From Branchiostoma floridae (taxonomy: Eukaryota > Chordata > Leptocardii > Amphioxiformes > Branchiostomatidae), in assembly GCF_000003815.2 (NCBI RefSeq), contig NC_049983.1:26504192-26568191 (forward strand): a DNA stretch of 64,000 bases, written 5' to 3'. Every line of letters begins with the position of its first letter. Within the stretch, counting starts at the first letter, position 1. The notes under the pieces were generated by a model. That model worked only from the letters and a program-made list of their open reading frames with translations, ran no database searches and had not been told where the DNA came from. This document shows positions 7,801 to 64,000 of this stretch, in pieces. The position numbers and the translations under genes are program-made.

Positions 7801-10800
7801 TTCTTAGTCCTCAAGACTTCAAAGCGGTGGCGTCCAGCTGAGAGAACGGAATTTGCGTTAATATCAACAATTCCTGGCAACAACGTAAGGCTGTAATTAA
7901 GGCAGCCAAGTCGATGTAAATTCCAAAATGGCAAGACGGAGGCCTTTTAGTCAAGGTTACTGACTTTAGATGTTCTTGGTTCCTGGGTTCGATCCTGCTA
8001 TACTACGTAACTTGTGCCCTTGGTAATGGCCCTTTACACGGCATTCCTCACCCCAACCAGGTGCAAAATGAGTCGGGTACCTGACTTCAATAAGGGAGGT
8101 AAAGGCGGTGGAACTACTACTCTTACTATTATGTACTCGTTAGGAGAAATCGCAAAAGACGTAGCCATTGAGTCTTTAATGAAAATAGTGGACCTCTGCT
8201 TAAGTTCAACCACAAATTTCCCTTCTAAAGAAGAATGGTATAACAGTTCCCCACCTTCACAACTACGTCCGTCTGACTGCAACACGAAGCCAGTTTGGCA
8301 GGTACAGGAGCTCCGACCGTCCCAGAAATGCTGGCAGCCGCCATTACCTGTTGGGAGAACAAACCACAGTTTAGGTAACGGTTACGGCTGGACAGGAAAT
8401 GGCGCAACAATCAAGTGGGATCTGGCTTGTTCAAATTAGGACAAATTAGAAATCAGTTATTCTATTGATATGATAGCTGCAAAACTTTTTTTTTGTTTTT
8501 GTTTTTTTTGGGGGGGGGGAGAGAAAACACAATATGAGCTCATATTGATGACATCTTAGCGACAAAGGTGTAAAAAGTTCACGGGTGCGTCTTACAAAAG
8601 TATGTCAACACCAAACTAAAGTTCATTTGCTCCTATTGATAGGACAAACGTTTTGCTCATCAAATCCTCATTGCAAATTTAAGATCATTTTGCCCAAAAT
8701 ATAGGCATTATACATTTATACATTCTTAAGGAGTTAAAAGAAGAAAACTCAATAACATTAAAATTAACAGTTCCGTGCAAAAAGTACATGATCGCGTTAA
8801 CGAAAGCTAACTTCAACGCCAAAGTAGACTTCATTTACTATCAATGTCAAGGAACAGATATTTACTCATTCAATCTCTATACCAAAATTAAATGTATTCG
8901 GCCTCGTAATAGACGCGTGATTTTTTTTATAAAAAGAAACCTCGGAAGAAACCTCAGCAGTAGAAAACGTCTTTATCTTAGTAAGGTGATGGTCAGTGCT
9001 GAACGGAAAATGACGCAACAATAAAACGTTGGGTCCAGATCACTGTGGCCTGACAGTTAGCAGGTTTTGTCCGATAATTTTGATGATTTCTTAATGCTAA
9101 ATTTGGTATGGTAGAAAACGTAAATCATATCGCCGATGGAGGAGGGATCGATCTGCGCATGGTTTCTAATACTTTCACAAAATCCTTAAAGCTTGTTTAA
9201 GAACTTTATCATAGTTTTAACAGTTGTTGCCAAGATCTTTTTTACCAAGCTTCGTAAGTTATGTCGCCACTGAGTAAGGCGAGGAAAGTAACGTGGCCAG
9301 GTGAACTCTTTTCATCACTCTTCTCTGGTATCAATTTTAACTTTTAACCGAGCAATTTAATCAGGATTAAAATCACCATAAAACATGCAAATGATTGTAG
9401 CAAGTATCGTTACGGTGTCATTAATACTATTAGTGCAAAACGTGGTCCTTCTGATTGTGTGCACTTATGAGGAATTATTCACAAACATGTCAAAATATCC
9501 CTCTTACATTGACGAATCGATATACAATTATTATCGAAAGGTGTAAAAAATATATCACAGAACACAACATAGTTTGGACCCGTTCGGTCATTTTAGTCGT
9601 GTAAACTATGTGGATGATTGAGGATACACTTGTTATGAATGTAAAGCGAAATGAGAGGAGTAAGACGACCCGGATACTCACTGTGAACAGATGAACCGTG
9701 ACACACGGTGTACACAGTTTGGTCCCCCTCTCCGGGCAAGGCGCGCCGTATGTTGCGCAGACTGGATAAACTATCGGATAAGTTTCGCTGGCAGGTTGAC
9801 TCCCAACAGTTATCAAAGCCGAAACTCCGAAACTCAGAATTTCGGGCTGAGAAAGCCAACCTCGCAATCTCGTGAACAGCGTCGTGAACATTATCCTGGC
9901 CGCAGCCAAGCACTTCGTTGTTGTAGGGGTCTGAGTTGTATTCAGTCACGCACCTAGGCACATAAGAACATTACTTTGCTGACGATATGGTTACCCTTAA
10001 AAAGCGGATATCAGATGGAAAAAACTCCTACCACATGCAAAACAAAAGGACTATTCCAGGGAATAACCTCGCTGGACAACAAAACAGCACCCGGCAAGGC
10101 CAGACCAGCCAAACGCTACCCAGCAGTTATCCTGGATAGGTTAAATCATCTAACTCTCCACCCAGGAACAACAGCTCATGGCTGCGAAGTGTTACGTTTT
10201 AATAAACCATTCAGTCATTCATTCCTTCAAGACAGATTGAAGGACAGGTAACAAGACAGATCCCAGGACAGGTAACGACAGAGATCCCAAGACGGGTAAC
10301 AAGACAAAACCCGAGACAGGTAACAAGACAGATCACAGGACAGGTAACAAGACAGATACCAGGACAGGTAACAAGACAGATCACAGGACAGGTAACAAGA
10401 CAGATCCCAGGACAGGTAACAAGACAGATCCCAATACATGTAACAAGACAGATCCCAGGACAGGTAACAAGACAGATCCCAGGACAGGTAACAAGGTAGA
10501 TCCCAGGACAGGTTACAATACAGATCCCAGGACAGGTAACAAGACAGATCCCAGGACAGTTTACAAGACAGATCTCAGGACAGGTAACAAGGTAGATCCC
10601 AGGACAGGTTACAAGACAGATCCAAGGACAGGTAACAAGACAGATCCCAAGACAGGTAACAAGACAGATCCCAAGACAGGTAACAAGAGAGATCCCAGGA
10701 CAGGTAACAAGACAGATCCCAGACAGGTAACAATAGAGATCCCAGGACAGGTAACAAGACAGATACCAGGACAGGTAACAAGACAGATCCCAGGACAGGT

Positions 10801-13800
10801 AACAAGACAGATCCCAGGACAGGTAACAAGACAGATCCCAGGACAGATAACAAGACAGATCCCAGGACAGGTAACAAGACAGATCTCAGGACAGGTAACA
10901 AGACAGATCCAAGGACAGGTAACAAGACAGATCCCAGGACAGGTAACAAGATAGATCCCAGGACAGGTAACAAGACAGATCACAGGACAGATAACAAGAC
11001 AGATCCCAGGACAGGTAACAAGATAGATCCCAGGACAGGTAACAAGACAGATCCCAGGACAGGTAACAAGAGAGATCCCAAGACAGGTAACAAGACAGAT
11101 CCCAGGACAGGTAACAAGACAGATCCCAGGACAGGTAACAAGACAGATCCCAGGACAGGTAACAAGACAGATCCCAGGACAGGTAACAAGATAGATCCCA
11201 GGACAGGTAACAAGACAGATCACAGGACAGATAACAAGACAGATCCCAGGACAGGTAACAAGATAGATTCCAGGACAGGTAACAAGACAGATCCCAGGAC
11301 AGGTAACAAGATAGATCCCAAGGCAGGTAACAAGACAGATCCCAAGGCAGGTAACAAGACAGATCACAGGACAGGTAACAAGAGAGATCCCAAGGCAGGT
11401 AACAAGACGGATCCCAAGGCAGGTAACAAGACAGATCACAGGACAGGTAACAAGAGAGATCCCAGGACAGGTAACAAGACAGATCCCATAGGCCCAGGAC
11501 ATCTACAAGACAAATCGTAGGACACGCATTGCCTGGCGGCACAGACCGAATAAAGGACAGCATGCATTGTAACTTCTGGTCATGATATTACCTATATTTC
11601 TCCGGATTATTGGATGCATAGGTGACTGCTTGAAGCTCCCCACAGCCTGTAGGTTGGAGTCCGAACCCTTCACAAAGGTTCTGGTAGTCCCGGCACCAGT
11701 TCTCTGAGCCCGACAAACCGTTAGCCGGCAGGCGCGCATGGATGGCGAAGAAGTTCTCCCCTTGATACTGCTGGTTTGTAGTACGCACAACTTGGAAAGC
11801 GTGATTTCCAGCTGAGAAGAATGAGCATCATAATTAGGCTTGTGATACGATGGAGACAGAAATTGTAATTATAAGTGCTAAAGCAAAAGACATACCAGCG
11901 AGCGTATCCACGGAAACAAGTCTTAGAATTGCAGCATAACTATCTTAACAAAAAGCTATTGATCACAGTTTCTCTAACAGTCCCAAACCATTCGTTTGGT
12001 CTTGAAAAGAAATGAGTATCAAAGAACATTTGCGTACTACACAGAGCTCATAACAACTCCCATACACAAATCATTTAGAAATTCAAACATCTACCAAACA
12101 CCAAATTAGTTTAGAGCATTAGAAGATCTTTAGATGTGCAGAAATGCGAATCACTGTAAAGCAGCCAGCTGCGTCCGCTTTCATGTTTGTGTTCCTATGA
12201 TGTATTGTGAAAACCCTTTATCCGTAACTACGTAACAAACAAGAAAACAAAAACAAAACTTACCGGCTGCTGTTGGAGCTGGAATTCCTGGAATGAGAGG
12301 TTGAAAATTCGTTAGTACATTTTATTTCTGGATTCTTCCAACTCTATTCTATAAATTTGTGATTTAGTCACCATTTAAAAAAAATATACAGAATATAAAT
12401 ATTTATTCTGGGAAACTGGCCTTGGGTTTAATATCTTGCTCTCGTCGTGCACAAAACGCGAGGTCATGTCTCATTAAATATTCAGAGGTTTTATGTATCT
12501 TTACATTATGGTTGATTGCACCTTTTATTTACACAGCTTGCCACTCGTTACTTCCACATGAAAAAAATATGACCATTTGAAAACAACTGTAGGAGTATAA
12601 GAAAAATAGACTTCATGCATCTATTATGGAGAGAGAGTCAGAATTAGAGAAATAAAACAAGTTCCGTGGACATGACACGATAAAGTGGCGGATACACTCC
12701 GAAGCATTGCCGCCTATTTCCGTCATTGCACGGACGATGTGTAACTAATCATGGGTTTAGAGTCTACAGGGACAGAACTGGCATGTGTGGTTGGAACTGG
12801 GATGCGTGGTTGGAACTGGGATGTGTGGTTGGAACTGGGATGTGAGGTTGGAACTGGGATGTGAGGTTGGAACTGGGATGTGTGGTTGGAACTGGGATGT
12901 GAGGTTGGAACTGGGATGTGTGGTTGGAACTCGGATGTGTGGTTGGAACTGGGATGTGTGGATGGAACTTGGATGTGTGATTGGAACTGGGATGTGTGGT
13001 TGAAACTGGGATGTGTGGTTGGAACTGGGATGTGTGGTTGGAACTGGGATGTGAGGTTGGAACTGGGATGCGTGGTTGGAACTGGGATGTGAGGTTGGAA
13101 CTGGGATGTGTGGTTGGAACTGGGATGTGTGGTTGGAACTGGGATGTGTGGTTGGAACTGGGATGTGTGGTTGGATGTTTCTTTGTGTTGTTGGAACTGG
13201 GATGTGTGGTTGGAACTGGGACGTGTGGTTGGAACTGGGATGTATGGTTGGAACTGGGATGTGTGGTTGGAACTGGGATGTGTGGTTGGAACTGGGATGT
13301 GTGGTTGGAACTGGGTTGAGAGGTTGGAACTGGGATGTGTGGTTGGAATTGGGATGTGTGGACAAACAGGCGACTGTTTCTGCATTCTTCCAGAATAAAA
13401 TCACTCTGGACTACATGACAGGGCCAGATAGAAGGTGCTCAAAACACTTTAACAGCCTCTGTACTGCAGATCTGGACCCCGTGTCCTTGGATGGGTGTGG
13501 TCACCTGTTGCAGTTTTTGTGCAAAATATGTGCAAAATACGCGTGCTTTTTGGCAGTAAGTTGCCATCATGTGCGGTAATCTACAAGAAAAAGTATCTAG
13601 AATTTTACCTAAATTTCTTGAAAGAACGAATGTTTGAACGAATATGACAGAGTTTACCTGCCTTTAAAATGTTATCCTATGGGCAAAGTGTTCAGTTTGT
13701 CGAAGCACAGGCACATATGGCGTTCACGTTCGAACCTGCACCTAACTATGTGTACAGGTACAGAGTTCTGGTCACACATTGCAAATAGATGACTGGCTTA

Positions 13801-15458
13801 TTTGCAATAACAAGCATACCGTTACAACATTGCCTGGCTGAATAGGGGAATGAGACAGAGAGCATTCTTAAAAATCATTCAACAACTCTACATTAAATGT
13901 TAAGTAATAGACCTTAAATCTGGAGGTTCTGCACCTGAACCGCCTTAAAGTTAAAAATACAGAATATGAAGATTTATTCTGGAAAACTGCTCTTTGGCCT
14001 TGGGTTTAATATCTTGCTTTCGTCGTGCACAAAACGCGAGGCCATGTCTCATCAAATATTCAGAGGTTTTATGTATCTTTAGAATATGGTTGATTGCTTC
14101 TTTTATTCGCACAGCTTGCCACTCCATACTTCAACATGAAAAAATATGAACATTTGAAAACAACTGTAGGATATAAGAGAAATAGACTTCATGGAAATTT
14201 TGGAAAGAGAGTCAGAATAAGAGAAATAAAACAAGTTCCGTGTACATGACACGATAAAGTGGCGGTTGCACTCCGAGGCATTGCTGCCTATTTCCGTCAT
14301 TGTCCGAACGGTGTGTAACTTATGGGTTTTCCAGTCTACAGGGACAGAACTGGGATGTGTGGTTGGAACTGGGATGTGTGGTTGGAACTGGGATGTGAGG
14401 TTGGAACTGGGTGGTTGGATGTGTGGACAAGCAGGCGACTGTTCCTGCATTCTTCCAGAATTAAATCGCCCGGGACTACAGGACAGGGCCAGATAGAAGG
14501 TGCTCAAAACACTTTAACAGCCTCTGTACTGCAGACCTGGACCCTGTGTCCTTGAATGGGTGTGGTCACCTGTTGCATGTTTTGTGAAATATGTGCAAAA
14601 TACGAGTGCTTTTTGGCAGTAAGTTGCCAGCATGTGTGGTAATCTACAAGAAAGAGTATCTAGAATTTTACATAATTTTCAAGAACGAATGTTTGAACGA
14701 ATATGCCATATTTGAGACAGAGTTTACCTGCCTTAAAAATGTTATCCTATGGGCAAAGTGTTTAGTTTGTCGAAGCACAGGCACATATGGCGTTCAGGCT
14801 CGAACCTGCACCTAACTATGTGTACAGGTACAGAGTTCTGGTCACACATTGCAATAAATAAATAGATGACAGGCTTATTTGCAACAACAAACGTACCGTT
14901 ATAGCATTACCTGGCTGAATCGGGGAATGAGACAGAGAGCATTCTTAAAATTCATATAACTCTACACTAAAATGTTAAGTACTAGTCTTAAATCTGGAGG
15001 TTCTGCACCTGAACCGCCTTAAAGTTGTCGTTTGTCCTCAGTGTTCTGCCGTATAGCCTTCTCTGTTTAGGGGTCTACTAACTAGAGAAGGTGTCCATGG
15101 GGCATTTTGATATGGACAATGCAATTTTCACGCAAAGATTACGGTGTCTCAGGTCCAGGGAAGTAAGTGACAGCTGTTCTAAGGCTCTGTCATAGCTAAC
15201 TTGGCTTCTACCTAGAATTATGGATTCATTCATTCTTCTTCTTTACCACCCTCGAACCACTCCTACTGGGGTATCACTGAGTGAAGGGTGTTGCCATGTC
15301 TGGTCAGTCAGTTGGAACTGTAATTTGGAAAAAAAGCTACATGCAAATATCGCACAGGGAAAAATAGTATATTCCCTACCCGTGACAATCAGCAGCCAAC
15401 AGGCGATTCCAGCGGAGACCAGTCGGCTCCTCGTGGCCCGGCGGTCCCGTCCGGCCAT
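55..15458 (-). CDS. Large mosaic EGF/FN3 extracellular protein with three copies of an unrecognised domain (3' end outside window)
   Basis: Nineteen exons read from high to low coordinates: 15380-15458, 12264-12287, 11592-11811, 9682-9953, 8255-8347, 7591-7837, 6853-7112, 5707-5944, 5009-5250, 4081-4200, 3468-3569, 2933-3208, 2442-2714, 2170-2292, 1676-1777, 1187-1462, 650-916, 342-503, 55-213. Every junction is in phase (phase 1, except phase 2 inside each unknown domain), giving 1178 codons with no stop. The start at 15458 opens a signal peptide (basic start, then LVSAGIACWLLIVTG). Order: signal, short linker, unknown domain, EGF, unknown domain x2, then EGF, EGF, FN3, FN3 twice, Ser/Thr stalk, acidic repeat. 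Phase-1 symmetric exons are the hallmark of extracellular module shuffling. Likely a secreted or cell-surface adhesion/receptor protein; the C-terminus, and any membrane anchor, lies beyond position 1. I do not recognise a named orthologue. Confidence 0.85.
342..503 (-). other. Ser/Thr-rich stalk exon of the mosaic gene
   Basis: A 162-bp phase-1 exon encoding a low-complexity Thr/Ser/Ala segment (VISTTTPAASTRETTVTAR, later TSTTAAKTWETTSTREE), typical of an O-glycosylated mucin-like stalk. Acceptor TTATTAG and donor GTGAGT are clear. A stalk after FN3 domains suggests the protein approaches a membrane or an elongated linker. Confidence 0.65.
650..2292 (-). other. Four-exon block 2: EGF, EGF (Tie/laminin-like), FN3, FN3
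   Basis: Exons 2170-2292, 1676-1777, 1187-1462 and 650-916 repeat the preceding block in the same order with near-identical exon sizes (123, 102, 276, 267 bp). Exon 2170-2292 has DECATVNGWCDQIC; 1676-1777 has CGHCQGGDINCD; 1187-1462 has VEPPINLAVSD; 650-916 has FTWVPPDAVVTGY. The offset between equivalent exons is about 1.75-1.9 kb, so the whole genomic block was duplicated, introns included. Confidence 0.8.
2442..4200 (-). other. Four-exon block 1: EGF, EGF (Tie/laminin-like), FN3, FN3
   Basis: Exon 4081-4200 is a calcium-binding-type EGF (GCANENGGCAQNC, YHCSC). Exon 3468-3569 is a short cysteine-rich EGF of the Tie/scavenger-receptor kind (CGHCQGGDINCD, GCQDGWKTRRC). Exons 2933-3208 and 2442-2714 are FN3 domains: the first has VDPPMNLTVSD and GYRVVVSG, the second FTWLPPDAVVTGYRVIYG and MYKMEI. 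All are phase-1 symmetric. Residues about 559-815. Confidence 0.8.
4815..4885. repeat. (CA)n microsatellite
   Basis: About 25 uninterrupted CA units, then degenerate CAGA units, in the intron between the third unknown domain and the first EGF of block 1. Confidence 0.95.
5009..5944 (-). other. Unknown domain, copy 3 (exons 5707-5944 and 5009-5250)
   Basis: The first half has NHAFEVLRT, FFAIEAGIPSH, WCRDYQNLCAEFGLNATGCGENYAVEGG. The second half has CVDEYNSDPYINN, FAFGTCPLASC and VYTVCTG. About 160 residues. It follows copy 2 directly without an EGF between them, so copies 2 and 3 look like a tandem duplication of the two-exon unit. Confidence 0.75.
6175..6780. repeat. 51-bp minisatellite
   Basis: About ten imperfect units containing TTCGGGTGAATGGGTAAGTG and GTGGGTGGATGGTGTTGG, in the intron just downstream of unknown-domain copy 2. 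The period is a multiple of three, so spurious open frames appear on the reverse strand. Confidence 0.9.
6853..7837 (-). other. Unknown domain, copy 2 (exons 7591-7837 and 6853-7112)
   Basis: The first half has HRFEVLRT, FLAIEARLPADGLS, WCTDYMYLCADYGLRPTG, EDYAVEGG. The second half has CVTEYNSDPY and IYTVCRG. About 169 residues. Only a GC donor (ACG|GCAAGTACC) at the end of the second half keeps phase 1 into the next exon; the GTACCT four bases later would shift the frame. Confidence 0.75.
8255..8347 (-). other. EGF-like exon between unknown-domain copies 1 and 2
   Basis: A 93-bp phase-1 symmetric exon encoding NGGCQHFWDGRSSCTC then QTGFVLQSDGRSCEG. It has the C-x-C and final cysteine of an EGF module but is shorter than the other EGF exons (120-123 bp) and lacks the first cysteines. 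Acceptor AACAG and donor GTGGGG are clear. Confidence 0.65.
8348..9681. other. Intron of the mosaic gene, no gene content seen
   Basis: Contains a G homopolymer at about 8510 and AT-rich sequence. No exon with matching splice sites and phase was found; the flanking exons 9682-9953 and 8255-8347 already join in phase. Confidence 0.6.
9682..11811 (-). other. Unknown domain, copy 1 (exons 11592-11811 and 9682-9953), residues about 35-198
   Basis: The first half carries HAFQVVRT, FFAIHARLPANGLS, WCRDYQNLCEGFGLQPTG. The second half carries CVTEYNSDPY, several cysteines and YTVCHG near its end. The halves join in phase 2 after the residues EKYR. The intron between them is filled by a 24-bp minisatellite. 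About 164 residues with six or more cysteines suggest a disulfide-bonded extracellular fold. I do not recognise it as a named family. Confidence 0.75.
10226..11505. repeat. 24-bp minisatellite
   Basis: Roughly fifty units of CCCAGGACAGGTAACAAGACAGAT with single-base variants, occupying most of the intron inside unknown-domain copy 1. The period is divisible by three, so long meaningless open frames occur. Confidence 0.97.
12380..13949. repeat. Tandem segmental duplication, unit 1 (with expanded 19-bp array)
   Basis: Unit 1 of a two-copy duplication in intron 1. Its left part (TTTATTCTGG, then ACAAAACGCGAGG) and right part (GACAGGGCCAGATAGAAGG, CCTGAACCGCCTTAAAG) recur in order in 13950-15027. 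The two units differ mainly in the length of the 19-bp array between these parts. Confidence 0.9.
12781..13362. repeat. 19-bp minisatellite, expanded copy
   Basis: About thirty units of GTGTGGTTGGAACTGGGAT with GTGAGG and GCGTGG variants, lying inside duplication unit 1. Confidence 0.95.
13950..15027. repeat. Tandem segmental duplication, unit 2 (contracted 19-bp array)
   Basis: Same flanking sequence as 12380-13949, but the 19-bp array has only about four units (14348-14416). The unit ends at CCTGAACCGCCTTAAAG, the same point where unit 1 meets unit 2. Confidence 0.9.
15380..15458 (-). other. First coding exon: start codon and signal peptide of the mosaic gene
   Basis: The ATG is at 15458 reading left. 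Residues 1-27 start MAGRDRRATRSR and run into a hydrophobic core ending LLIVTG. The exon closes with a GTAGGG donor in phase 1. It joins the 24-bp exon 12264-12287 (encodes IPAPTAA), which joins the first unknown domain in frame. A Met 21 codons upstream in the same frame is possible but would put a polar stretch before the signal peptide. Confidence 0.75.
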
Positions 15459-39000: not shown

Positions 39001-42000
39001 TATGATCCTTGCAAGTTTCACAAGACTATAGTATAAGAGACCAGAAATTCTACCATGATCACAGTTGAAATGATAAAATCCCCAAAGTATTGAGGCTGGG
39101 ACTGTGCGTTACCATGGAGACTGTGATGTCCCCAAAGGTTTTCTCCTCCCCTCGGTTGGCCCAGTAACGCTCACACTTGTGCTGTGGGGGGAGAAACAAA
39201 ACAACCAAATCTGAGTTATTCTGACTTATTGTTACAACAGAATAATACAGTTTATGCTGGCATCTGTGTCAAAATTTCAATCCTTCTTTCAGTTGAGAGA
39301 TTGGTTCTTAGGATTAAGGAAAAACAGGAGTTGGAAATAGTTTATCAAACAAAATCTAATAATCTGATAATGAACAAAAGAGCCAAGTGGATGGAACAAG
39401 GAGAAAAGTGTACGAATTTTTTTATGAATTTAAATGGTAGAGGACATGTAAGAAAGAATATGACAAAACTTGTAAAGCCAGATAGTTCAGTGGTAATTGA
39501 TCCGGAAGAAATTTTAAGACAACAAAATTTTATGCCGACCTGTACACTTTCAAAGACCCCCCTATGTCTCTAGACAGCGATGTCTTTTTGCCTTTCTTTC
39601 CGCAACCTCCACCAGTAAGTTTATTTGATAGTCAGCGCGATAGCTGTGAAGGGTTTATTACAGAAGTTGAACTAAAAAAGGCTATTGAGTCATTTTCTGT
39701 TGGTAAGTCACCCGGTTTAGATGGCCTTCCCATAGAATTTTATAGGGTCTTTTTTCAAAGTTTAAAACAACCACTGTTGGCTTCCTTTAACCATTCGTTT
39801 CAGGTTGGTTGTTTATCAGACACACAGAAAACTGGACTCATCACGTTATTACTTAAACAGGATTCCACAAAGAACCTTCGCATATAAAAAACTGGCGCCC
39901 GGTGACCTTATTAAATTGTGATAACCGTATACTGTCTAAATGTTTGGCCCTCCGAATGAAGAATGTTATCTCATCTCTTGTTTCGTATGATCAGACTGGC
40001 TTTATGAAAGGGCGATCCATTAGTGACACTATACGGAGACTTTTAGAAATCATAGAATACTATGACCGAAATGAAATGCCGGGTTTGATATTTTGTGCAG
40101 ATTTTGAAAAAGCTTTCGATAAAATTCGACATGATTTCATTTTTAAGGTTTTGAAGTATTTCGGTTTTGGTGATTCATTTATTACATGGATAAAAGTTCT
40201 GTATAAAGACACTTTTAGCAAAATCATCAATAATGGTTATATTTCCGACTCGTTTGCCCTTAACCGTGGAGTCCGACAAGGATGTCCCATTTCGCCTTAC
40301 CTATTTGTCTTAGGTGTGGAGTTACTAGCTATGAAAATTAGGAGTAATATTGAAATTCAGGGTTTAACAACATATGGTCTTGAAACAAAACTTTTACAAT
40401 TTGCCGACGATTCCAATTTTCCCCTGGTTCCAAAGCTTGGTACCCTGTATGCCTTGGTAAAAGACATAGAAGTGTTCTCAACATTGTCAGGTTTAGTGCC
40501 AAATTTTGATAAGTGTATGATAGTACGAATAGGTTCGTTAAGAGACACCAACTTCTTTATTCCTTGCTTACTACCATTACAGTGGACAGATGGCCCTGTA
40601 GACATTTTAGGAATCCATATCCCCAAGTATCTATCAGATATTGTTGCTTTGAATTTTGACCGAAAAGAATCAAAGATAGATAAGCTTTTAAATCCCTGGA
40701 AAGGAAAACTACTTTCTCTTCTAGGTAAGGTTACTCTAATTAATTCCCTGATAGTGTCGCAATTTATCTTCTTGTTTCAATCCCTTCCTTCTCCACCTCC
40801 CTCTTTCTTCGAGAGGTTTGAGAAAAAAATATTTAAGTTTCTGTGGAGTGGTGGACCAGAACGAGTGAAAAGAAAAACAGTTTATAATCTCTACGAATAT
40901 GGCGGTCTCAAACTTAGGAACTTGCAGGCTGTTGATCTTACCCTGAAGGCTTCTTGGGTGCCCAAATTGTACCATAATGATAAATGGTTCTGCTCTAAAC
41001 TGCTACTTTGCTCAAGTGTTTTATTTACAACTAATGTATTTCCCTTTTCGCAACTCACACTTCGTGATTTCGAAATAGTTATGAAAGAAAAGGCACAAAT
41101 CAGTCAATTCTTTAGGCATGTCATACAGGCGTGGCTAAAGTTTCAACTACGCCCTCCAGAGACTGCACAGGAAGTGAAACAACAGCCTATCTGCCTAAAT
41201 TCACACATTCGCATATCCGGAAAACCATGCTTTTTGATGTCACTATACAACAGGGGGGTAATCTTTGTAAATGATATTTTAGACTCACAAAATAAGCTTT
41301 TAACTTTCCAAGACTTACTATTAAAATTTGGAGACACCTGTGCAGAGTTTAAGTATAATCAAATCATATCAGCAATTCCTAGCAATTGGAAACATTTACT
41401 ACGACAGGTGTCACCAGAGTTAAGGGTTTGTGTTCCGGCGTGTAGAAACATAAACTGGCTTCAATTTCCAAATATCAATAAACATTTGTATTCATTTTTC
41501 ATGTCTGACGCCAGGCTATGGGATATCTCTGACCGGATCCAATACTCGTGGGGGGAATACTTAAACACACCCATACAATGGAAAATAGTATACAGTTTAC
41601 CCTATAAAGTTACCATTGATTCCCAACTACGCATGTTTCAATACAAATTACTATTTAAATTTCTAACTACCAATAAGATATTGCACAGGTGGGGGGTAAT
41701 AGATACATCACTTTGCAGTTATTGCACAGAAGAGGAAGAATCAGACATTCATTTATTTTGGGATTGTAGGATTGTTACAAAATTTTGGATACAGGTACAG
41801 GATTGGTATTTTAAGCACACTGGGAATTATTTACATCTTACTTTGTTTAATGTGTTATTTGGTATTATAAGTGATCGTGTTCCAGCTTTGTCCAATTTTG
41901 TTATTTTGTTAGGTAAACATTTCATTTTCAAATACCGGAACAGACGTCTTAGCCTAGAATCATTTATTTCATATATGTCATATTATTTTAAATTAGAAAA

Positions 42001-45000
42001 TATCATCGCCAGAAGACTAAACAAAACTAAAAAACATATTGGTAAATGGGGTAAATTGATTGGTTATATATAATTTGTTATGTCTCATGTACTACTGCAA
42101 CGGTAATTGGGGTATAATTTCTTGAACTTCATTTCTTATTAAGTTCACTGTGTTTTACTTATCAGTTTTATAGGTTCACACATGTCTCTTTCTGTTTACG
42201 ATTTACGTGCCATGCATGTGTTTGTATGTGTTTCGTTTCTTTGAAAATCAATAAAAAAATTTAAAAAAAAAAAAAAATGAATCGGTGTGTCCTACATGTA
42301 ATGGATGTGTCAGAATCAGGGCTCTAGCCAGCGTCCTTTTTCCGCCAATTGACGGAAATTTGCTGCGTGAGACGGAAAAATTTTAAAACCAATCCGTCAA
42401 CTTTGACGGACAAAAATCTGACAAAAGCTCCTTGGTGGGAGCTACAGGCGGCTTGGGGACGTCGTCCACGGCAGTAAAAGCCACACACTGTTTGTTTTGC
42501 TATTGTTATGATTGTTGACAATGTGTGTCTGTGCCCTTTTGCATATGATAATCTCATTAAAACCTGTTTTTCAAGGTCTCAGTTCAGTCTCTCTAACTCC
42601 TGGAATAGTGTTTTCGCGACAATGGGAATTAGCTGACGGAGAAAAATGTCGAGCTGGCTAGAGCCCTGGTCAGAATAGATGTACAGCACTTTCAAAATAT
42701 GAATCTTACACATTTGAGTATCTCTCCTTACCTTTCCCTGTTCCACCTCCCGACAGGCCATGATAACAACCTGCAAAATGACACCATTTCTATTAGTTGT
42801 TGCAGTTATGATGAAGTTTAGGACATTTAGGCACCAATTACAACCAGTGGATTAGCAACCATACTTTTACAGCTTTGTTGTTATTATTTTCACTCCGCGT
42901 ACCGTAGGTACGCTTCGAGTGAAAATATTGTTTTCATACGGTTTCTTCTTTCTTTCTTTCTCCTGTCGCGACCTTTAAAGTGATTCCTCTCCGTCGTTCC
43001 TGGACCAAATGGCCTGAAATTTGGCACAAGGGTACAGTAGGCCAATACCCAGACCCGTTTTTCTCATTTTCTTGATAGATACCTTTACAATGATTTTAGG
43101 GATGTTTTAAGGTCGTTTTCTGGCCCGGCTGTATATTCATGTCTCCCGTGCCCAGGTATTACGTCCAGATGACTTGAAAGTTGGTATGATACTGCGTGAG
43201 ATACTTATTAAAAGGACCCCGGTATTATTTTTGGCCAATCGTCACTTCAAAATCATTTAAAAGCCAATTTGGCGGGGTATCTACGCATATTTTCACCGAG
43301 CTCGCGTTTCGCGCGTGTAACCATATATGGTCACGTTTGCACGTGCGTCCGTTGCACCATATATGGTTATGGACGTTTCCGCGCGTGACGTAAGCTGTTT
43401 ACCTGCAGCTGTGCATTGTGGCTAATTGAATTTAGAAGGGAACCAATATGCGCCCGACACTTAGCGGAAGCGATGACCTGATTGGTCAGCTCGGGTACAG
43501 CCAATGAGGAAGGGTTTTTCAACTTAGCGGCTGGGAGTACATATATGTCGCCGGGAAGAAGTCCGTTAAAAGTAAGTGAAAAATTGTACTGTTTATCTTA
43601 AAATTGGCAACAATACACAAACGCAGTAACAAATTTGTGTAACTTGTCGTCGTTATTGTGTAGTTTTTGTTTGATTTACCCACGTTTAGAGTGTCTGGAT
43701 AAGCGATACCGTAGCGTCAGAATGCCGCGGTAAGTGGGAGCGCATGCATGGAATATTGTTGCGCTTTGCAGTGACTGATGAGACAGTACTAGTATTGTAT
43801 CATCAAGCTTTATTGACACGACAAAAAGTACAGTCAATTTTGTAGGGCCAACTTTAAACTGCAACGAAAAAAGAAAGAATACAGAGTATATCTTACAATT
43901 CTACTAATTAAACATTATGATATGATTCTACTAATTATCGGTGAAAAGTGTACAGTAGTTCTCTTCCATAGTAACGTTATATGATAGTACAGATTTTCAA
44001 GGGCAAATCTACTAGTACAAACGTTACACTATGTTGTGAATTGTCCATTCAGGTTGGTTGTACAAGAATATATGTAATCAGGTGTGGCTTTTTTTCTAAT
44101 CAACAAACAAAAAGGATCTTCCTTTTACTCTGGGTGGCAGTACATGAAATTACACAAAGGAAATACTAATTATTGTATTCTATTCTATTTTCTACTGGAG
44201 GAAGAGGATTCACCACCAGGACTGTTGTGCAGACAGGTGGGGTTGTGCCTTGATAGAGGGTGTCAATTTGACAGTGCTAAATTCATTATTGGTCGGGTGC
44301 TCGAACTCAACTAATGCCACAAAGTCTGGCCTGTCAGGGAACACAATAGTCAACTGGCTACAAAGGTGGCATCAACAGACACCAAGGAGAGGATAGCAAA
44401 GTCACGTACAAGAAGCGTTACTGTGACAGAAACACCAGCTTTATGTATGATTAGGCTATTTGGGACAATATTGTAACTAGTAAACTAAGTGACAATTAGA
44501 GATATTATTATACCAACCATGAGTTCAAACATTGTATTTCATGACAGGCATGAATAAGTTTTTATGACTTTTCAGACACCACGTCATGGTATATGCTGTG
44601 TAATTTAGTAATGCACTGTACTACAAACAGTTAATCAGAATAATTAGATAATCATAAACTGATTAGTTTATGTGGAAAATAAATGGGACGTTAAGTTTAT
44701 AACAGACGTATAATAACTGCAATTGCTGCATCCTTTTTTCAGACAAAAAGCATGCAAAACATTTAGATATGCAAAACAGACTCCGTGCAAACATACAGTC
44801 GCTAATTAGCTTTGTTCATCAATATAATGTATTAGCTGATTAACTCTAAGCTTAAGTATAAAAACAGAATGCGATCCTTTTTGTCTGAATACAATGTGCA
44901 TACATTTATATGCATTTGTAATGATAATGTAATTGCAGAGCAGCCATGATATCCAATTGGATTTTTTTTTAAATTGCACTTCGCTAAAAACGGCTAATAA

Positions 45001-48000
45001 GCATATCTTGGTAAAGAGTTAAAAGTGTAGTGCAGTTTGTTTGGAGAGGTCTGCTTGTATGAAGATTAGTTATGCTTGTGACAACCTTGAATAAGTGCAG
45101 TAATTGCCCTTGCCTTGTGTAAATAAGCAGGAAAACTTTAATCATAACCACGCTATTGTCTGCTGTGGGTACGTAATACCAACGTTTAGGGTCACATAAC
45201 GTGTTGCATCTGTAGAAAATTTCCGTTTGTGACATAATTTTTTTTTTTCTTGAAGTAAAACGGTGCTTGCTTTGTTAATGTGTGTAACATTAGCATGCTG
45301 TGTGCGTGTTGTAATAAAGAAATAAAAGTTTGATTACCGTACAGTACTCACATTGGATTTTTCAAGTTCAATTTTGGAAAAGTCCATTTTTGCATAAAGG
45401 GGAGAGCGGAGTGAAAATAGCTGAATTTGCTCCTAAGCAAATACCGGCCTTTCTAGTTTAGTGTTGTTATCTAATGTTATTGTGTTGTTTCTGCCCAGGA
45501 TTGCCTGAAAAACAGGTCTAGGTTTGACCTGAGCTGTATTACTCCTGGTTAAATAAAAAGTGAAAGTGAAAGTTGCAATGCTTTGTACATTGTATGACTG
45601 TCAAGCGATAAAGTTCATTCATCATTGGTCATAAATGTTGTTCACAAGGATGTCTAATGTTCATAAATACCCACTTGCAAAGCTCAGCGATACAGTAGAC
45701 AAATACTGGTCCAGGAACTCTTTTCTATTGTGATTCCAGGGCATGACAAAAGATACACATATCTGAATTACAGTCTCTAATTTGCTATAAGGAAACCTTT
45801 CTGATACATAATCCTCTAAAGCATTAACATTAGAAACACTCTGACTAGGAAAAAGGGGAAGGACACACACAGGAGATATCTCCTCTACTCAGACATCATT
45901 GTCAACGATCTGTCCGATGACTGGTTGGCAAAAAACAAGAACCTGTCGCATTATGGCACGATTAAAGAACATTTTGTGAAGTTTGGTTCCATCTAAGAAT
46001 GGATGGGCAAGCCACTGGCAGAGTGTTCCCACAGAGCCAGAGACAGGAGGGAGTGGAGGAGGCTGGTACTGGATGCCACCATAGTCCCCGACCCTCAGAC
46101 ATGAGGATGGGACTAGGTAAAGGTTCCATGCAGGCATTTCGTTTTTGTTATTTATGTACTTAGAAATCAACCCCCAATAAGTTGAAGGGGCTACCCACAT
46201 GTCTTGAGATCAATAAATCAATAAATCTGACCTTGACATTGTACTCCCACAGCATTCTCCAGAAGTCCACCACGGTGGCGGGAAGCGGGGCCTGCGACGC
46301 GATGTACGTTCTCTCTCCCGTCGCTCCCTGGGGGGAAAATCCACCAAGATTATAGCAAAAGTTGTACAGAAAATAATGTTCACTATCATAATAACAGTTA
46401 TTTAATATCTAGTGCAGCTAAGTCTCTGAGTATCCAGGTCAAAGTAGGTCTCTATAACCGACTGAGGAAAAGTGTTTGGTGACTGCCGAGGATGATTGTT
46501 CCAGGGTCTTATGAAGTATGTAAAATTAGACACTGTGGCTTATGACTGGAGATGGTTGTCTGCTATTCTAAAATTTGATCTCTTGATTCAAGTCCTAACA
46601 GCTCTATTCAGCAATTTTGAGATTGCAGGGTTTGACAAGTCCACTAGCCCGATTGTCCCCGGCAAGTGAAAGCGTCCTTCCCCGCTTGTCCGATTGGGCA
46701 AGTAAGATTTTTGCATGAGATTTTGATATACTTGTTGCTTATCACAGTTACCACATCACGCATTGGTCAACACAGAAAAATAGAGCCAATAATAAAAGAA
46801 TTCTAATTTGCTGCACGTGAAAATACATAGTGAAAACTGTTACTTAAATTTTTGGGCAAGCAGAAAGCTGGTTCGGGCATGTAAATTTTGCATGTACTTG
46901 CCCGATAGGACAAGTGAATTTTAGAAAACTTGTTAAACCCTGGATTGGACTATTCAGCAATTTTGAGATTGGACTATTATGTACTTATTTCCTGACAGTA
47001 CATTTCTAGTAGTACCTTGAAGGCTAGCTGGATTTCATTTAGTTCTTGTTGAGTATCTATCAATAAAAAGGAAGATGACATCACAAACCTTAAGAAAATT
47101 GGCATTGATGTAATCTGACCCTGGTGATCCTTTGACCTCTGACAGTTGAACTCTGGTGTAGTCAACTGTAACATGCATCAAACACTTCATTATCAACTGG
47201 TTCATATTCTGTTGTGCAAATGCCTTATCAGCTATCCATTCAAAGGAATGAATGAAGAAATGAATGAAAAAATAAATGGCAGAAGAAAGGGATGATGGAA
47301 TGAATAAATGAGGGCATGAATAAAGCCTCATAGTAATGAATGAAAGAATGAATAAATGAATGAATGAAAGAATGAATGAATGAATGAAAGGAATGAATGA
47401 ATGAGTGAATGAACAAAGGAAAGAATGAATGAATGTCCTTTCTTACATGGCAAGATATCCTTGTATCTGTTTTTCCTCCTGTTACATTCCTTCTCTCCAT
47501 GAGTGGTGGAGTAGGTCTTGTCTAACTTGTACTGCATCGACTGCTGCTTCAGTTTCTGGGAAAACACAGGAGAAAACATTGATTTCACTCATCATGTCTG
47601 CATCAAAGTTCATCTGAGACCAACATATTGTAGTACAACAGACAGTCCAATCATGAAGTGACTGTAGACGATATCAAAGATTTAGATTAAAAGTTGTTGA
47701 CACTACATGATAAATTCCATTGAAGAAGTACTACGTCTTCACAGAATAGAATAAGGCCCACTTCACATTGACAACAGTATACATGTACTGCCATGCGACG
47801 CTTCGCTGTGGTGACAGTAGTCGTTAGTTAACACTGAAACCGACTCCCTGACACAACTTGGGGTTAAATACTGATAATCTGACTTGAAGAATTTGTCTGG
47901 AATAAATGACAATAATTATTTCTCTAAAATTGTCTGATAGCATCAAATCTTTTCCATTCTAAACTTACCATCACTGTATAGCTATCTGGGTGGCCCTGTG

Positions 48001-58892: not shown

Positions 58893-61800
58893 ATGGCCGC
58901 CCTGACAGAACCCACGCTCCCAGTGCAACCACTCCCTCCTAACGACCTTGAAGAGGTCACACCGGACGACCTTGTGGAGGAAGGTGCACCAGGCGCAAGC
59001 GAGGATCACATGCTCATCGCCGCCGAGTCTTACGAGGACATAAACGTCGCGATAGACGAGCAGTACCACCGCGGGAAAGATGAAAAGGACAAAACGAAAA
59101 ACGAAATCGAGCAGTCCGCGAGAGAACTGAGTATCGATGACAGAAGCACGACTCCCAGCGACGAGGGGAGGGAAACGCCGAAAGAGGAAGTGTCATCGGC
59201 AGAAGGGAAGGACCGGTCGAACAGTATGTTAGGAAACAGGGACCGGCCGCAGCACGTTGAGGAGGAGTGTTACAGCCCGGAGTGGAGACAGCGACAGAAA
59301 CACGTCTTCATACTCAGCGAGGCAGGTAAACCCATCTACACGCGGCACGGGAACGAGGACAAGCTGGTTACCACGATGGGTGTGATGCAAGCGCTGGTCT
59401 CGTTTGTACAGGACAACGATGATAACATCAGGTGTGTATTACTATTACTGGTACTACTGGTAGTCTGTGGATCAGAGGGTTGACCAAGGTTTCCATTCTC
59501 ACCTGCAAGTCTTGTTTGTACAGGTAACATCAGGTGAGTATGTGGTAATGTTTATGGTCTACAAGTAGAGCTATATGGATCAGAGGGTCGAGGGTTCCAT
59601 ACTGTGCAGGTCTCATTTGTACAGGAAAACGATGATAACATCAGTTGAGTATATATTTGGTAATGTGTATGGTCTACTGGAGTAGATCTATTGTTAGTAT
59701 TGATCAGTCTTGTTTGTGCAGGAACATCAGGTAAGAAATTGGTCTAGTGTTTATGGTCAACTATAGATGTCTACTATGCATGCATGTCTACTGTATAACA
59801 TGAGGTGAAAATATGGTACATGTAGTATGCATGTGTATAGTGTACAAATAGATCTTTGGACAAGAGGATTAACTTGATCGCAGGCAGCCACAAGTTCGTG
59901 TTCCTGAACAGACCTCCCGTGATCCTGGTGTGCGTGACTCACAGCGTGTGTTTCTTTTGTTTCCACAGGTTCATGATCGCAGGCAGCCACAAGTTCGTGT
60001 TCCTGAACAGACCTCCCGTGATCATTGTGTGCGTGTCTCACAGCGTATGTTTCTGTCTCACAGCGTGTGTTTCTGTCTCACAGCGTATGTTTCTCCTTTC
60101 CACAGGTTCATGATCGCAGGCAGCCACAAGTTTGTGTTCCTGAACAGACCTCCCGTGATCCTGGTGTGCGTGACTCACAGCGTGTGTTTCTTTTGTTTCC
60201 ACAGGTTCATGATCGCAGGCAGCCACAAGTTCGTGTTCCTGAACAGACCTCCCGTGATCCTTGTGTGCATGTCTCACAGCGTATGTTTCTGTCTCACAGC
60301 GTGTGTTTCTGTCTCACAGCGTATGTTTCTCCTTTCCACAGGTTCATGATCGCACTGATTCGCAGGCAGCCACAAGTTTGTGTTCCTGAACAGACCTCCC
60401 GTGATCCTGGTGTGCGTGACTCACAGCGCGTGTTTCTTTTGTTTCCACAGGTTCATGATCGCAGGCAGCCACAAGTTCGTGTTCCTGAACAGACCGCCCG
60501 TGATCCTGGTGTGCGTGTCTCACAGCGTATGTTTCTGTCTCACAGCGTGTGTTTCTTTTGTTTCCACAGGTTCATGATCGCGGGCAGCCACAAGTTTGTG
60601 TTCCTGAACAGACCTCCCGTGATCCTGGTGTGCGTGTCTCACAGCGTGTGTTTCTTTTGTTTCCACAGGTTCATGATCGCAGGCAGCCACAAGTTCGTGT
60701 TCCTGAACAGACCTCCCGTGATCCTGGTCTGCGTGTCTCACAGCGCGGAGTCGACCCAGCAGCTCCTCTTGCACCTGACCTACGTGTACAACCAGATCAT
60801 CAGCGTCTTAACCTTCAGCCAGCTCAGCAAGATCTTCGAGAAGAAGAGCAACTACGACCTGAGGAGACTTCTGACGGGAACAGAGAAGTTCTTAGACAAT
60901 CTCATCAACCTGATGGACCGGGACGCCATGTTTCTGCTGAGCGCTGTGCGGTGCCTGCCGCTGGCGAGCTCGGTACGCGACATTATCGGACAGAGCATCG
61001 CGCAGTGTAAGGCCAAGGACCTGGTGTTCGCCATCCTGGTAGGGCGGGACAATCAGCTGGTTACCGTGGTGAGGATGAAGGAACACAGCCTCCACCCCGC
61101 GGACCTCCATCTCGTGTTTAACCTGGTGGACGCTTCCACGTCCTTCCAGTCCGCAGAGTCGTGGACGCCCATCTGTCTGCCAAAGTTCAACTCTAACGGG
61201 TTTGTTTTCCCTTTTATCACAAAGGCTCTTAATGCATCCAAAGGGAATTGTTAAGTTGTTACTTACACTTACGTGTATGTCTTTCTTTATTGTTGTAGTT
61301 ACTTGTGCAAATTGCTGTCATAATGGGAATGCAAGGCCTTAGGGTCAGACAAATTATATTATAACAGAGAAAGAGAAGGAAAAGGCATGACTAAGGCCTA
61401 AAATTGAATGAGAAATTACAATATAATCCTGAAAGTGAAAGAGTGGAAGGTGACATATGGTCACAGCAAACATAGATGTACACCTGCTTACCTGGATTGA
61501 TACCCGTACCTGTTGCAGGTACCTCCACCCACACCTGTCCTACCTTATGTTAACACCTGTACCTGTACCTGCAGGTATCTCCATGCACACGTGTCCTACC
61601 TTGTGTTAACACCTGTACCTGTACCTGCAGGTATCTCCATGCACACGTGTCCTACCTTGTGTTAACACCTGTACCTGTACCTGCAGGTATCTCCATGCAC
61701 ACGTGTCCTACCTTGTGTTAACACCTGTACCTGCAGGTATCTCCATGCACACGTGTCTTACCTTGTGTTAACACCTGTACCTGCAGGTATATCCACGCAC

Positions 61801-63886
61801 ACATGTCTTACCTTGTGTTAACACCTGTACTCATACCTGCAGGTATCTCCACCCACACCTGTCCTACCTTGTGTTAACACCAGTACCTGTACCTGCAGGT
61901 ATCTCCATGCACACGTGTCCTATCTTGTGTTAACACCTGTACCTGTACCTGCAGGTATCTCCATGCACACATGTCCTACCTTGTGTTAACACCTGTACCT
62001 GTACCTGCAGGTATCTCCATGCACACCTGTCCTACCTGGACGAGGAATGCTCCGCCTGCCTGCTGCTACTATCCGCCGACAGGGACGTTTTCTTCGAGCT
62101 GTCGGAGGCGCGACAGAAGATCGTGACGCGTCTGAACAAGTACAACTGCCTGCAGGCCATCCGCGAGTCTCTCGCCAAGGGGTCGTACAAGGTCGCGCAG
62201 ATCGGCATCCCGGACCTCAGACACTTCATGTACAAGTCCAAGTCCACCGCTCAGTACACAAGCTCGGAACTAGAGGCACCCTATACAGGTTAGTATGGTA
62301 TAGAGACACTGTACAGGTCACCAAATCTGAACAAGAGGTACTGGAGTATAGACTATAGTGTACAGCACACTATACAATAGAGGCACCCTGTAGTCACTAT
62401 TCTGGTCAGTACAAATCAACCTGGCTTGAAGTTTGGATGTCTGTAGCCACAATATGCATCAGCCATCAGACTATGATGCCTGTGAACGATTGATTGATTG
62501 TCAAAGGCCTATACAGGTCAGTACACCAGCTCTAGACAAGAAGTACCCTATACTTGTGAGTGTGAGTACACTATAGAGGCACCCTATACTGGTCAATACA
62601 CCAGCTTGAAATTAGATCCACCCAATTTAGGCGAGTGGTCCTTGGAATAGCCTGCATATGCAAAGTCATTGACGAAACTTACTGGATTGCTACCTGAAAT
62701 ATTTCACCGTTTCCACAATATTATTAGTTGCTCGAGTAACTGCTGTTTTGCATGAACTCTATCCTATTCTTTGTGTTACAGAGGAAGGCGAGAGGCATCG
62801 GCTGTTCGGGATGTACCAATACCTGCACCACAGGGTCCACAACTCCGCACGGCCCCTCAAGATTCTCTTCCATGTGGGGTCCAAGGAGACCATGCTGGGA
62901 TGGGTACGTACATGGAGGGGTTTGTTTTGCTTAGCCTTTAATTTGCCTCAAGGTAACAGACCAGTTTTGTACTGTAAGACCAATTAATGGTACATGTATG
63001 GTTTGATCCACTCACACATTGCTAGAGCTCAAGGAGACCATGCTGGGATGGGTACGTACATGGTAGTCTGTAATCAGTATTTGACTATACTGCTGCGGGG
63101 GTCCCTGACACGGGTAGGCAGCAGTTGGCTAGTCTTTACACTTTACACTTCCAAGTGGCTCTGTTTAGCATGTTCACCCTAGCAGCTTAGCCATTAATCT
63201 GCCTCAAGGTGTAACACACCAGTTTTGAGTAAGGTTTGATGAACTCACACAAAATTAGAACCTAACAATCATCAGTAAATTCAAGAAAGTTAAAGTCCTT
63301 CCAACACCAAATAATGCATTAGGCTGCACACACCTCTTTTTCTGTAACCCTGGGCCACACAAGTTTGTACAATCACTACAGCAGGAAGTTGTTGTAATAA
63401 TTATTGTGTTCAATGACCATACTCTTTCTCAAATGAGTGCCTAGCTGAGAAAGCAGCATGTACCATTTTTAATCTCTGACTCGACTGGCGATCAAACTCA
63501 CACTTGCATAATTGTACCAGTGTAGATATGTTGGGTTCTTTACTTGAAAAGACTTGAGGTGTGGCTCTTCTCATACGCGGGACCTCCAGCTTAACACCCC
63601 ATCCAAAGGCCATCCCTAGTGAAAGCTACTGGTACTCATAAAGTCGTATTCACCTGAGCAGTGAAGTTTATTCTTTTCAGGTCTAAGAACCGACAAGTTA
63701 ACTTGCTCTTGTCTAACATGTAGGATTTGCTGTTCTTGTTCCCAGATCACCTCAGGGTTTGAGCTGTACGCGACCTTTGGCCCGCTGGTCACCAAACCGG
63801 CCGCCATCAACGCAATCAACAAGCTGCTGCGATGGATCAAGAAGGAGGAGGATCGGCTCTTCATACTCAACTCTTATACTTACTGA
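58893..63886 (+). CDS. MON1: MON1, subunit of the Mon1-Ccz1 Rab7 guanine-nucleotide exchange factor
   Basis: Five coding exons in phase: 58893-59431, 60669-61199, 62011-62288, 62782-62903 and 63746-63886; 536 aa, close to vertebrate MON1A/B. The exon containing the start begins at 58875 after CTGCTGCTCCAG; the ATG sits in AAGATGGCCGCC. Residues 1-125 are acidic, low-complexity and probably disordered. The conserved core starts at [19 protein letters not shown] and continues with [94 protein letters not shown] and a C-terminus [20 protein letters not shown], all MON1 family signatures forming its longin-type domains. With CCZ1 it activates Rab7 on late endosomes for endosome maturation and fusion. 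All splice junctions match by phase. Odd: most exon edges are flanked by extra tandem copies of themselves. Confidence 0.95.
59509..59740 (+). repeat. Exon-edge array: three extra copies of the MON1 exon-2 end with donor
   Basis: The true edge is TTTGTACAGGACAACGATGA then TAACATCAG|GTGTGT (59404-59437). Copies: 59509-59540 (ATCAG|GTGAGT), 59610-59650 (ATCAGTTGAGT, donor damaged) and 59706-59736 (ATCAG|GTAAGA). Each is followed by a similar TGGTCTAC tail, so the unit is about 100 bp. Two copies have donors closer to consensus than the authentic one. Confidence 0.88.
59873..60668 (+). repeat. Exon-edge array: seven extra copies of the MON1 exon-3 start with acceptor
   Basis: The true edge is TTTGTTTCCACAG|GTTCATG at 60669. 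Copies of about 75 exonic bases begin at 59873 (no acceptor), 59969, 60106, 60205, 60342 (10-bp insertion), 60451 and 60570. Spacing alternates around 99 and 137 bp. Six keep a full pyrimidine tract and CACAG. Copies encode the same 25 residues (start [16 protein letters not shown]) with almost only synonymous changes. Confidence 0.95.
61505..62010 (+). repeat. Exon-edge array: about nine extra copies of the MON1 exon-4 start with acceptor
   Basis: The unit is 56 bp or less: ACCTGCAG|GTATCTCCATGC and CACACGTGTCCTACCTTGTG. Copies start at about 61519, 61574, 61631, 61687, 61738, 61790, 61843, 61899 and 61955; the authentic exon begins at 62011. Copies include about 25 coding bases (YLHAHLSYL). 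The junction CAG|GTATCT can be read as acceptor or donor. Confidence 0.93.
62365..62640 (+). repeat. Degenerate copies of the MON1 exon-4 end
   Basis: The true edge is AGAGGCACCCTATACAG|GTTAGT (62270-62293). Related pieces: AGAGGCACCCTGTAG at 62370, CCTATACAGGTCAGTACACC at 62509 and AGAGGCACCCTATACTGGTC at 62575. More diverged than the other arrays. Confidence 0.65.
63028..63063 (+). repeat. Copy of the MON1 exon-5 end with donor
   Basis: AAGGAGACCATGCTGGGATG|GGTACGTACATGG at 63031 repeats the true end of exon 5 (62883-62915) almost without change, including the GTACGT donor, about 150 bases into the intron. Confidence 0.9.
63183..63662. mobile_element. Dispersed SINE-like repeat, copy 2
   Basis: Shares ordered blocks with 54430-54830: CTGCCTCAAGGTGTAACACA, TTGGGTTCTTTACTTG, GAGGTGTGGCTCTTCTC, GGGACCTCCAG, ACTGGTACTCAT. 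It lies in the last MON1 intron. Confidence 0.6.
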
Positions 63887-64000
63887 GTAACCTTCATCTT
63901 CATATCTTACAAGTTAAATACTGAGTAACCTTCATCCTGAACTCTTATACTTGCTGAGTACCCTTCATCTTCAACTCTTATACTTACTTACTGTAACTTT
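63860..64000 (+). repeat. Tandem copies of the MON1 stop-codon region
   Basis: The true end CTCAACTCTTATACTTACTG then AGTAACCTTCATC recurs as CTGAACTCTTATACTTGCTG at about 63932 and CAACTCTTATACTTACTTAC at about 63973, plus a partial unit at 63915. It continues to the window edge. Confidence 0.85.

Follow-up and report, generated by a model that had tools for sequence, protein, structure and literature searches.

Mirage-type tandem arrays at five splice junctions and the stop codon of an amphioxus MON1 gene

Mirages of amphioxus are the closest described counterparts of the arrays reported here. They have been described in the globin genes BflGb6 and BflGb9 of Branchiostoma floridae, with one boundary named for each gene in the accessible part of the source (PMC3087553). 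The same account cites Adh3 mirages in two species together with their length and somatic instability, reports a homogenisation of the inner copies in BflGb6, and proposes mirages as a route to new introns (PMC3087553). The Adh3 data and RT-PCR of the globins suggest that splicing stays regular despite the mirages (PMC3087553). The mirage of PGBD5 comprises two arrays in one gene, and troponin C is cited as a further case (PMC3902484). As far as these partly accessible accounts go, mirages consist of minisatellite-like copies across 5′ and 3′ boundaries, many of them with an intact AG or GT, and have units of 10-160 bp (PMC3087553, PMC3902484). MON1 resembles them in these respects. Unlike BflGb6 and BflGb9 with one boundary each and PGBD5 with two arrays, however, MON1 is affected at five boundaries and at the stop codon. 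The MON1 arrays therefore belong to a described kind and are richer than the cases in these publications, and the statement in the preliminary description that no such system had been described does not stand, as amphioxus mirages of the same kind have been published (PMC3087553, PMC3902484). In the openly accessible literature on amphioxus minisatellites, no mention of MON1 was found.

The window, i.e., the whole analysed stretch of 64,000 nucleotides, contains MON1 at 58893-63886, and the exons and arrays of the gene are all given on the plus strand. The gene model was derived from splice signals and the reading frame and has five coding exons with GT/AG borders and an open frame of 536 codons. 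Exon numbering follows the preliminary description, in which the first coding exon is exon 2 (58893-59431); exon 3 (60669-61199), exon 4 (62011-62288), exon 5 (62782-62903), and exon 6 (63746-63886), the last coding exon including the stop, follow downstream. All five exons are backed by protein alignment. The 536-amino-acid protein matches human MON1A (9lol_B) with an E-value of 2.8e-157 and zero gaps at all four splice joins, and all three FUZ/MON1/HPS1 longin domains are present. The first coding exon also holds two adjacent copies of a 24-bp sequence (58933-58980) that are 75% identical.

Copies were detected by comparing the 40-mer centred on each edge with its best ungapped match at most 1 kb away, and 400 shuffled positions served as background, with a maximum of 24/40. 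By this measure, local edge-spanning copies are found at five of the eight MON1 splice junctions and at the stop codon; across nine settings of length and threshold, the number of copied junctions ranges from two to five of eight. The best copy reaches 40/40 at the exon 3 start, 39/40 at the exon 4 start, and 35/40 at both the exon 5 end and the stop codon. The exon 2 end (27/40) and the exon 4 end (26/40) have degenerate copies only. No copies above background were seen within 1 kb of the exon 3 end (21/40), the exon 5 start (18/40), and the exon 6 start (20/40). All edges listed in the preliminary description thus exceed the shuffled maximum, although its wording that nearly every exon boundary is copied goes too far, holding for five of eight junctions and the stop and failing for the three junctions at background. 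MON1 therefore carries boundary-spanning tandem copies at its exon/intron edges as mirages do, and the periods of its regular arrays (33-137 bp) fall within the unit range of mirages (approximately 10-160 bp).

The individual arrays differ in their structure. At the exon 2 end, a degenerate mirage in intron 2 (59392-59817) is made up of short copies of GTTTGTACAGG...AACATCAGGT, and the short motif AACATCAGGT has four further copies. The mirage at the exon 3 start (59875-60745) contains seven acceptors and one leading copy without an acceptor. The last intron bases of these acceptors lie at 59968, 60105, 60204, 60341, 60450, 60569, and, for the authentic one, 60668; six further copies match at 28/40 or better. 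The periods of this array are 99, 119, and 137 bp, and two unit types are mixed in a 236-bp higher-order repeat whose two members (59875-60110 and 60111-60346) are 99% identical. The exon 4 start mirage (61514-62037) is built from 9.6 copies of a 56-bp unit, of which eight further copies match at 28/40 or better, and an additional, more divergent acceptor at 61518 brings the total to ten. One base of this unit is variable, being G in five of nine copies, A in two, and C in two, with C in the authentic exon. A degenerate mirage covers the exon 4 end (62246-62640) and, like that of exon 2, is irregular in period. The exon 5 end and its single copy span 62882-63063, with 62882-62915 repeated at 63030-63063 over 34 identical bp. 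The last codons and the stop are copied by an array with a 33-bp unit (63859-64000), which extends approximately 246 bp past the window (L027:1-246) with several further copies. The copy numbers given earlier compare with these as follows: seven at the exon 3 start (counting the authentic acceptor), degenerate copies at the exon 4 end, and one copy at the exon 5 end are all recovered; nine at the exon 4 start sits between the eight further copies and the ten acceptors; three at the exon 2 end falls short of the four found; and the copies of the stop region are real but continue beyond the stretch from which they were counted.

One reading of such numbers is that array size has been inflated by assembly error. 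Repeats of this type are hard to assemble, and the BflGb6 mirage was misassembled in the draft genome (PMC3087553). The MON1 copies, however, differ among themselves by substitutions and in one case by a 10-base insertion, and copying during assembly cannot produce the degenerate arrays, so that this explanation is extremely unlikely. The copy number of the exon 3 and exon 4 arrays is nevertheless uncertain.

It is highly probable that the arrays are mirages in the sense of minisatellites whose unit extends across an exon edge by chance and which are tolerated and then amplified. Their formation would start with a tandem duplication that reaches from the intron to a few tens of bases inside the exon, or the reverse, and one duplicate would stay joined to the full exon. 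The spliceosome would keep choosing this exon-joined copy, leaving the extra copies in the intron and the protein unaltered. Such a duplication would be tolerated, and may be nearly neutral, because the protein does not change, whereas duplications within an exon would mostly not be tolerated. Unequal exchange or slippage would subsequently multiply and partly homogenise the intronic copies. Unequal exchange would account for the 99% identity of the 236-bp higher-order repeat and for the regularity of the 56-bp register, and the G/A/C pattern in the exon 4 unit agrees with inner copies having been partly homogenised, as described for BflGb6.

Splice sites were scored with a self-trained weight matrix. 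The scores of all acceptors in the exon 3 array (seven) and the exon 4 array (ten) differ by no more than 0.6 from those of the authentic sites. Among the four donor copies of exon 2, two exceed the authentic donor (8.1 and 7.3 versus 6.5), one scores below it, and one lacks GT. A single gene thereby offers arrays of seven and ten near-equal acceptors as well as donor copies that outscore the authentic one. The effect of using a copy instead of the authentic site was modelled for 19 single alternatives (three exon 2 donors, six exon 3 acceptors, nine exon 4 acceptors, and one exon 5 donor): 17 lead to a premature stop, and two, which place the exon 3 start at 60342 or 60570, lead to an in-frame insertion. 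The intact frame and the conserved protein suggest that splicing probably uses the exon-joined copy. If MON1 mRNA is regular, the gene reveals how much weight the attached exon body has in the choice of site.

The same scores also count in favour of the copies being decoy splice sites under selection, which might for instance slow or tune the splicing of MON1. The acceptor copies of exons 3 and 4 are nearly as strong as the authentic sites, two exon 2 donor copies are stronger, and GT persists in three of the four copies of the exon 2 end and in all three donor copies of a MARVEL-domain gene in the C3 block (see below). Under selection for decoys, old copies are expected to keep GT better than their flanks. 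The copies of exons 3 and 4 are too similar to be informative in this respect, and among the older copies at the ends of exons 2, 4, and 5, GT is retained in four of nine when copies are chosen ungapped on their flanks, a count in which flank matches go down to 14/26 and some may be due to chance. The best-preserved exon 2 copy (flanks 23/26) reads TT. Three gapped exon 2 copies that are missed by the ungapped choice keep GT, raising the count to seven of 12. Neither number requires selection, and the decoy role raised in the preliminary description is unproven and distinctly unlikely; its assertion that copies always include the splice signal is contradicted by those that have lost it.

A replication or repair process aimed at exon ends would make such copies throughout the genome, and the five of eight copied junctions in MON1, with five of six arrays on an edge against 1.6 expected (counted post hoc), are in its favour. 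Its prediction was followed in a sample of 314 kb, 27 kb of it N, consisting of 250 kb of this genome and the window. An exon finder was trained on the sample; as its first version was too permissive, costs were raised and the finder was retrained. On MON1, which is part of the training set, it finds nine of ten edges exactly and places the exon 3 start one copy upstream; its false calls in this gene are three pseudo-exons in the exon 3 array and one in the exon 4 array. Most of the stronger predicted peptides were checked against Pfam. From the 470 predicted exons, 50 were chosen that belong to genes known by Pfam, by their peptides as judged by eye, or, in some cases, only by their position in line with such exons. 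This choice was made after the copy scores of strong exons were known, includes some exons without a Pfam match of their own, and left out a strong exon end in the C3 block (33277, junction copy 28/40) for want of homology. Three pseudo-exons in the window that consist of array only (10272, 10751, and 13011) were excluded from both junction counts. The chosen exons provide 98 edges with AG or GT (50 acceptors and 48 donors), one of which sits at a predicted gene end.

Outside MON1, only two of these 98 junctions have a local copy at 26/40, compared to 7.6% of 53,000 intron positions, and when every strong predicted exon outside MON1 is counted without selection, copies occur at three of 103 junctions. 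Exon-interior positions have local copies in 1.0% of 10,854 cases and thus also lie below the introns. The junction rate is lower than the intron rate at all nine settings (0/98 versus 4.3% at 30/40), and 98 random intron points show two copies or fewer in 1.8% of draws, a rough figure because neighbouring positions are not independent. The intron copy rate varies from 0 to 36.6% across 11 gene spans, and tandem repeats with a period of at least 10 make up 2.3-12.8% of the four sample blocks. The chief weakness of the comparison is that misplaced predicted edges would make the junction count too low. A junction tabulation of the kind proposed in the preliminary description, run on these 314 kb, yields no enrichment: the sample shows no preference for junctions, which are, if anything, avoided, in agreement with purifying selection on exon edges. 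In this small sample with predicted edges, both junction counts speak against a general bias of duplication toward exon ends, which is very unlikely. The sample also gives a rough mirage rate of approximately 2% of junctions (2/98, 95% interval 0.2-7.2%).

One of the two matches is a second mirage. It is located at the donor of a gene with a MARVEL domain (L026:6031, C3 block 46031), which is followed by three copies at block positions 46149, 46273, and 46401, i.e., 118, 242, and 370 bases downstream. In each copy, the donor position is occupied by GTAAGT or GTACGT. The other match involves an acceptor region with one degenerate copy, which lacks AG.

MON1 is an outlier against this background (5/8 versus 2/98 junctions, Fisher P 1.1e-5, post hoc), and a rate of approximately 2% per junction does not explain five copied junctions in one gene. 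Tests inside the gene are likewise post hoc, as MON1 was picked for being striking. The excess of arrays that touch an edge has a P of 0.005 with array limits drawn by eye, and rotating the copy profile against the MON1 junctions gives five copied junctions seen versus 2.8 expected (P 0.034). However, a local copy exists for 45% of the MON1 intron positions in any case. Most of the excess is explained by abundant tandem duplication at this locus, and a mild excess at the edges remains. The earlier view that the arrays centre on splice junctions is in this way retained for MON1 and lost for the sample. It is unlikely that some genes are prone to mirages, with duplications that preferentially start at exon edges, perhaps in connection with co-transcriptional splicing, so that copies accumulate at most edges of one gene, and with a spliceosome that skips up to nine near-equal sites and prefers the exon-joined one. 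If this were true, MON1 would offer a naturally occurring test of exon definition.

The MON1 arrays share traits with two further systems. Ordinary intronic minisatellites are alike in unit length, partial homogenisation, and higher-order repeats, but the MON1 unit contains coding sequence and a splice signal. The Rogers model, in which an intron is gained via an AGGT segment, likewise relies on tandem duplication with splice signals, as far as the accessible part of its source goes (PMC4974935); in MON1, by contrast, the copies enlarge existing introns, and no new intron is shown. Exons 3 and 4 of MON1 begin with GT after the AG, as is the case for eight of the 50 sample acceptors. A resemblance between the 5′ end of an intron and the start of the next exon was not seen by eye for MON1 introns 2 and 3.

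Elsewhere in the window, predicted minus-strand exons (342-57195) encode fibronectin III and tyrosine phosphatase domains and probably represent one or more receptor phosphatase-like genes. Between predicted minus-strand exons lies a 24-bp array of 52.6 copies (10228-11488) with CAGGTAA in its consensus. One 19-bp unit occurs in two arrays approximately 1 kb apart (12775-13361 and 14347-14411). An open frame of 738 codons (39857-42073) resembles a LINE-type reverse transcriptase as judged by eye.
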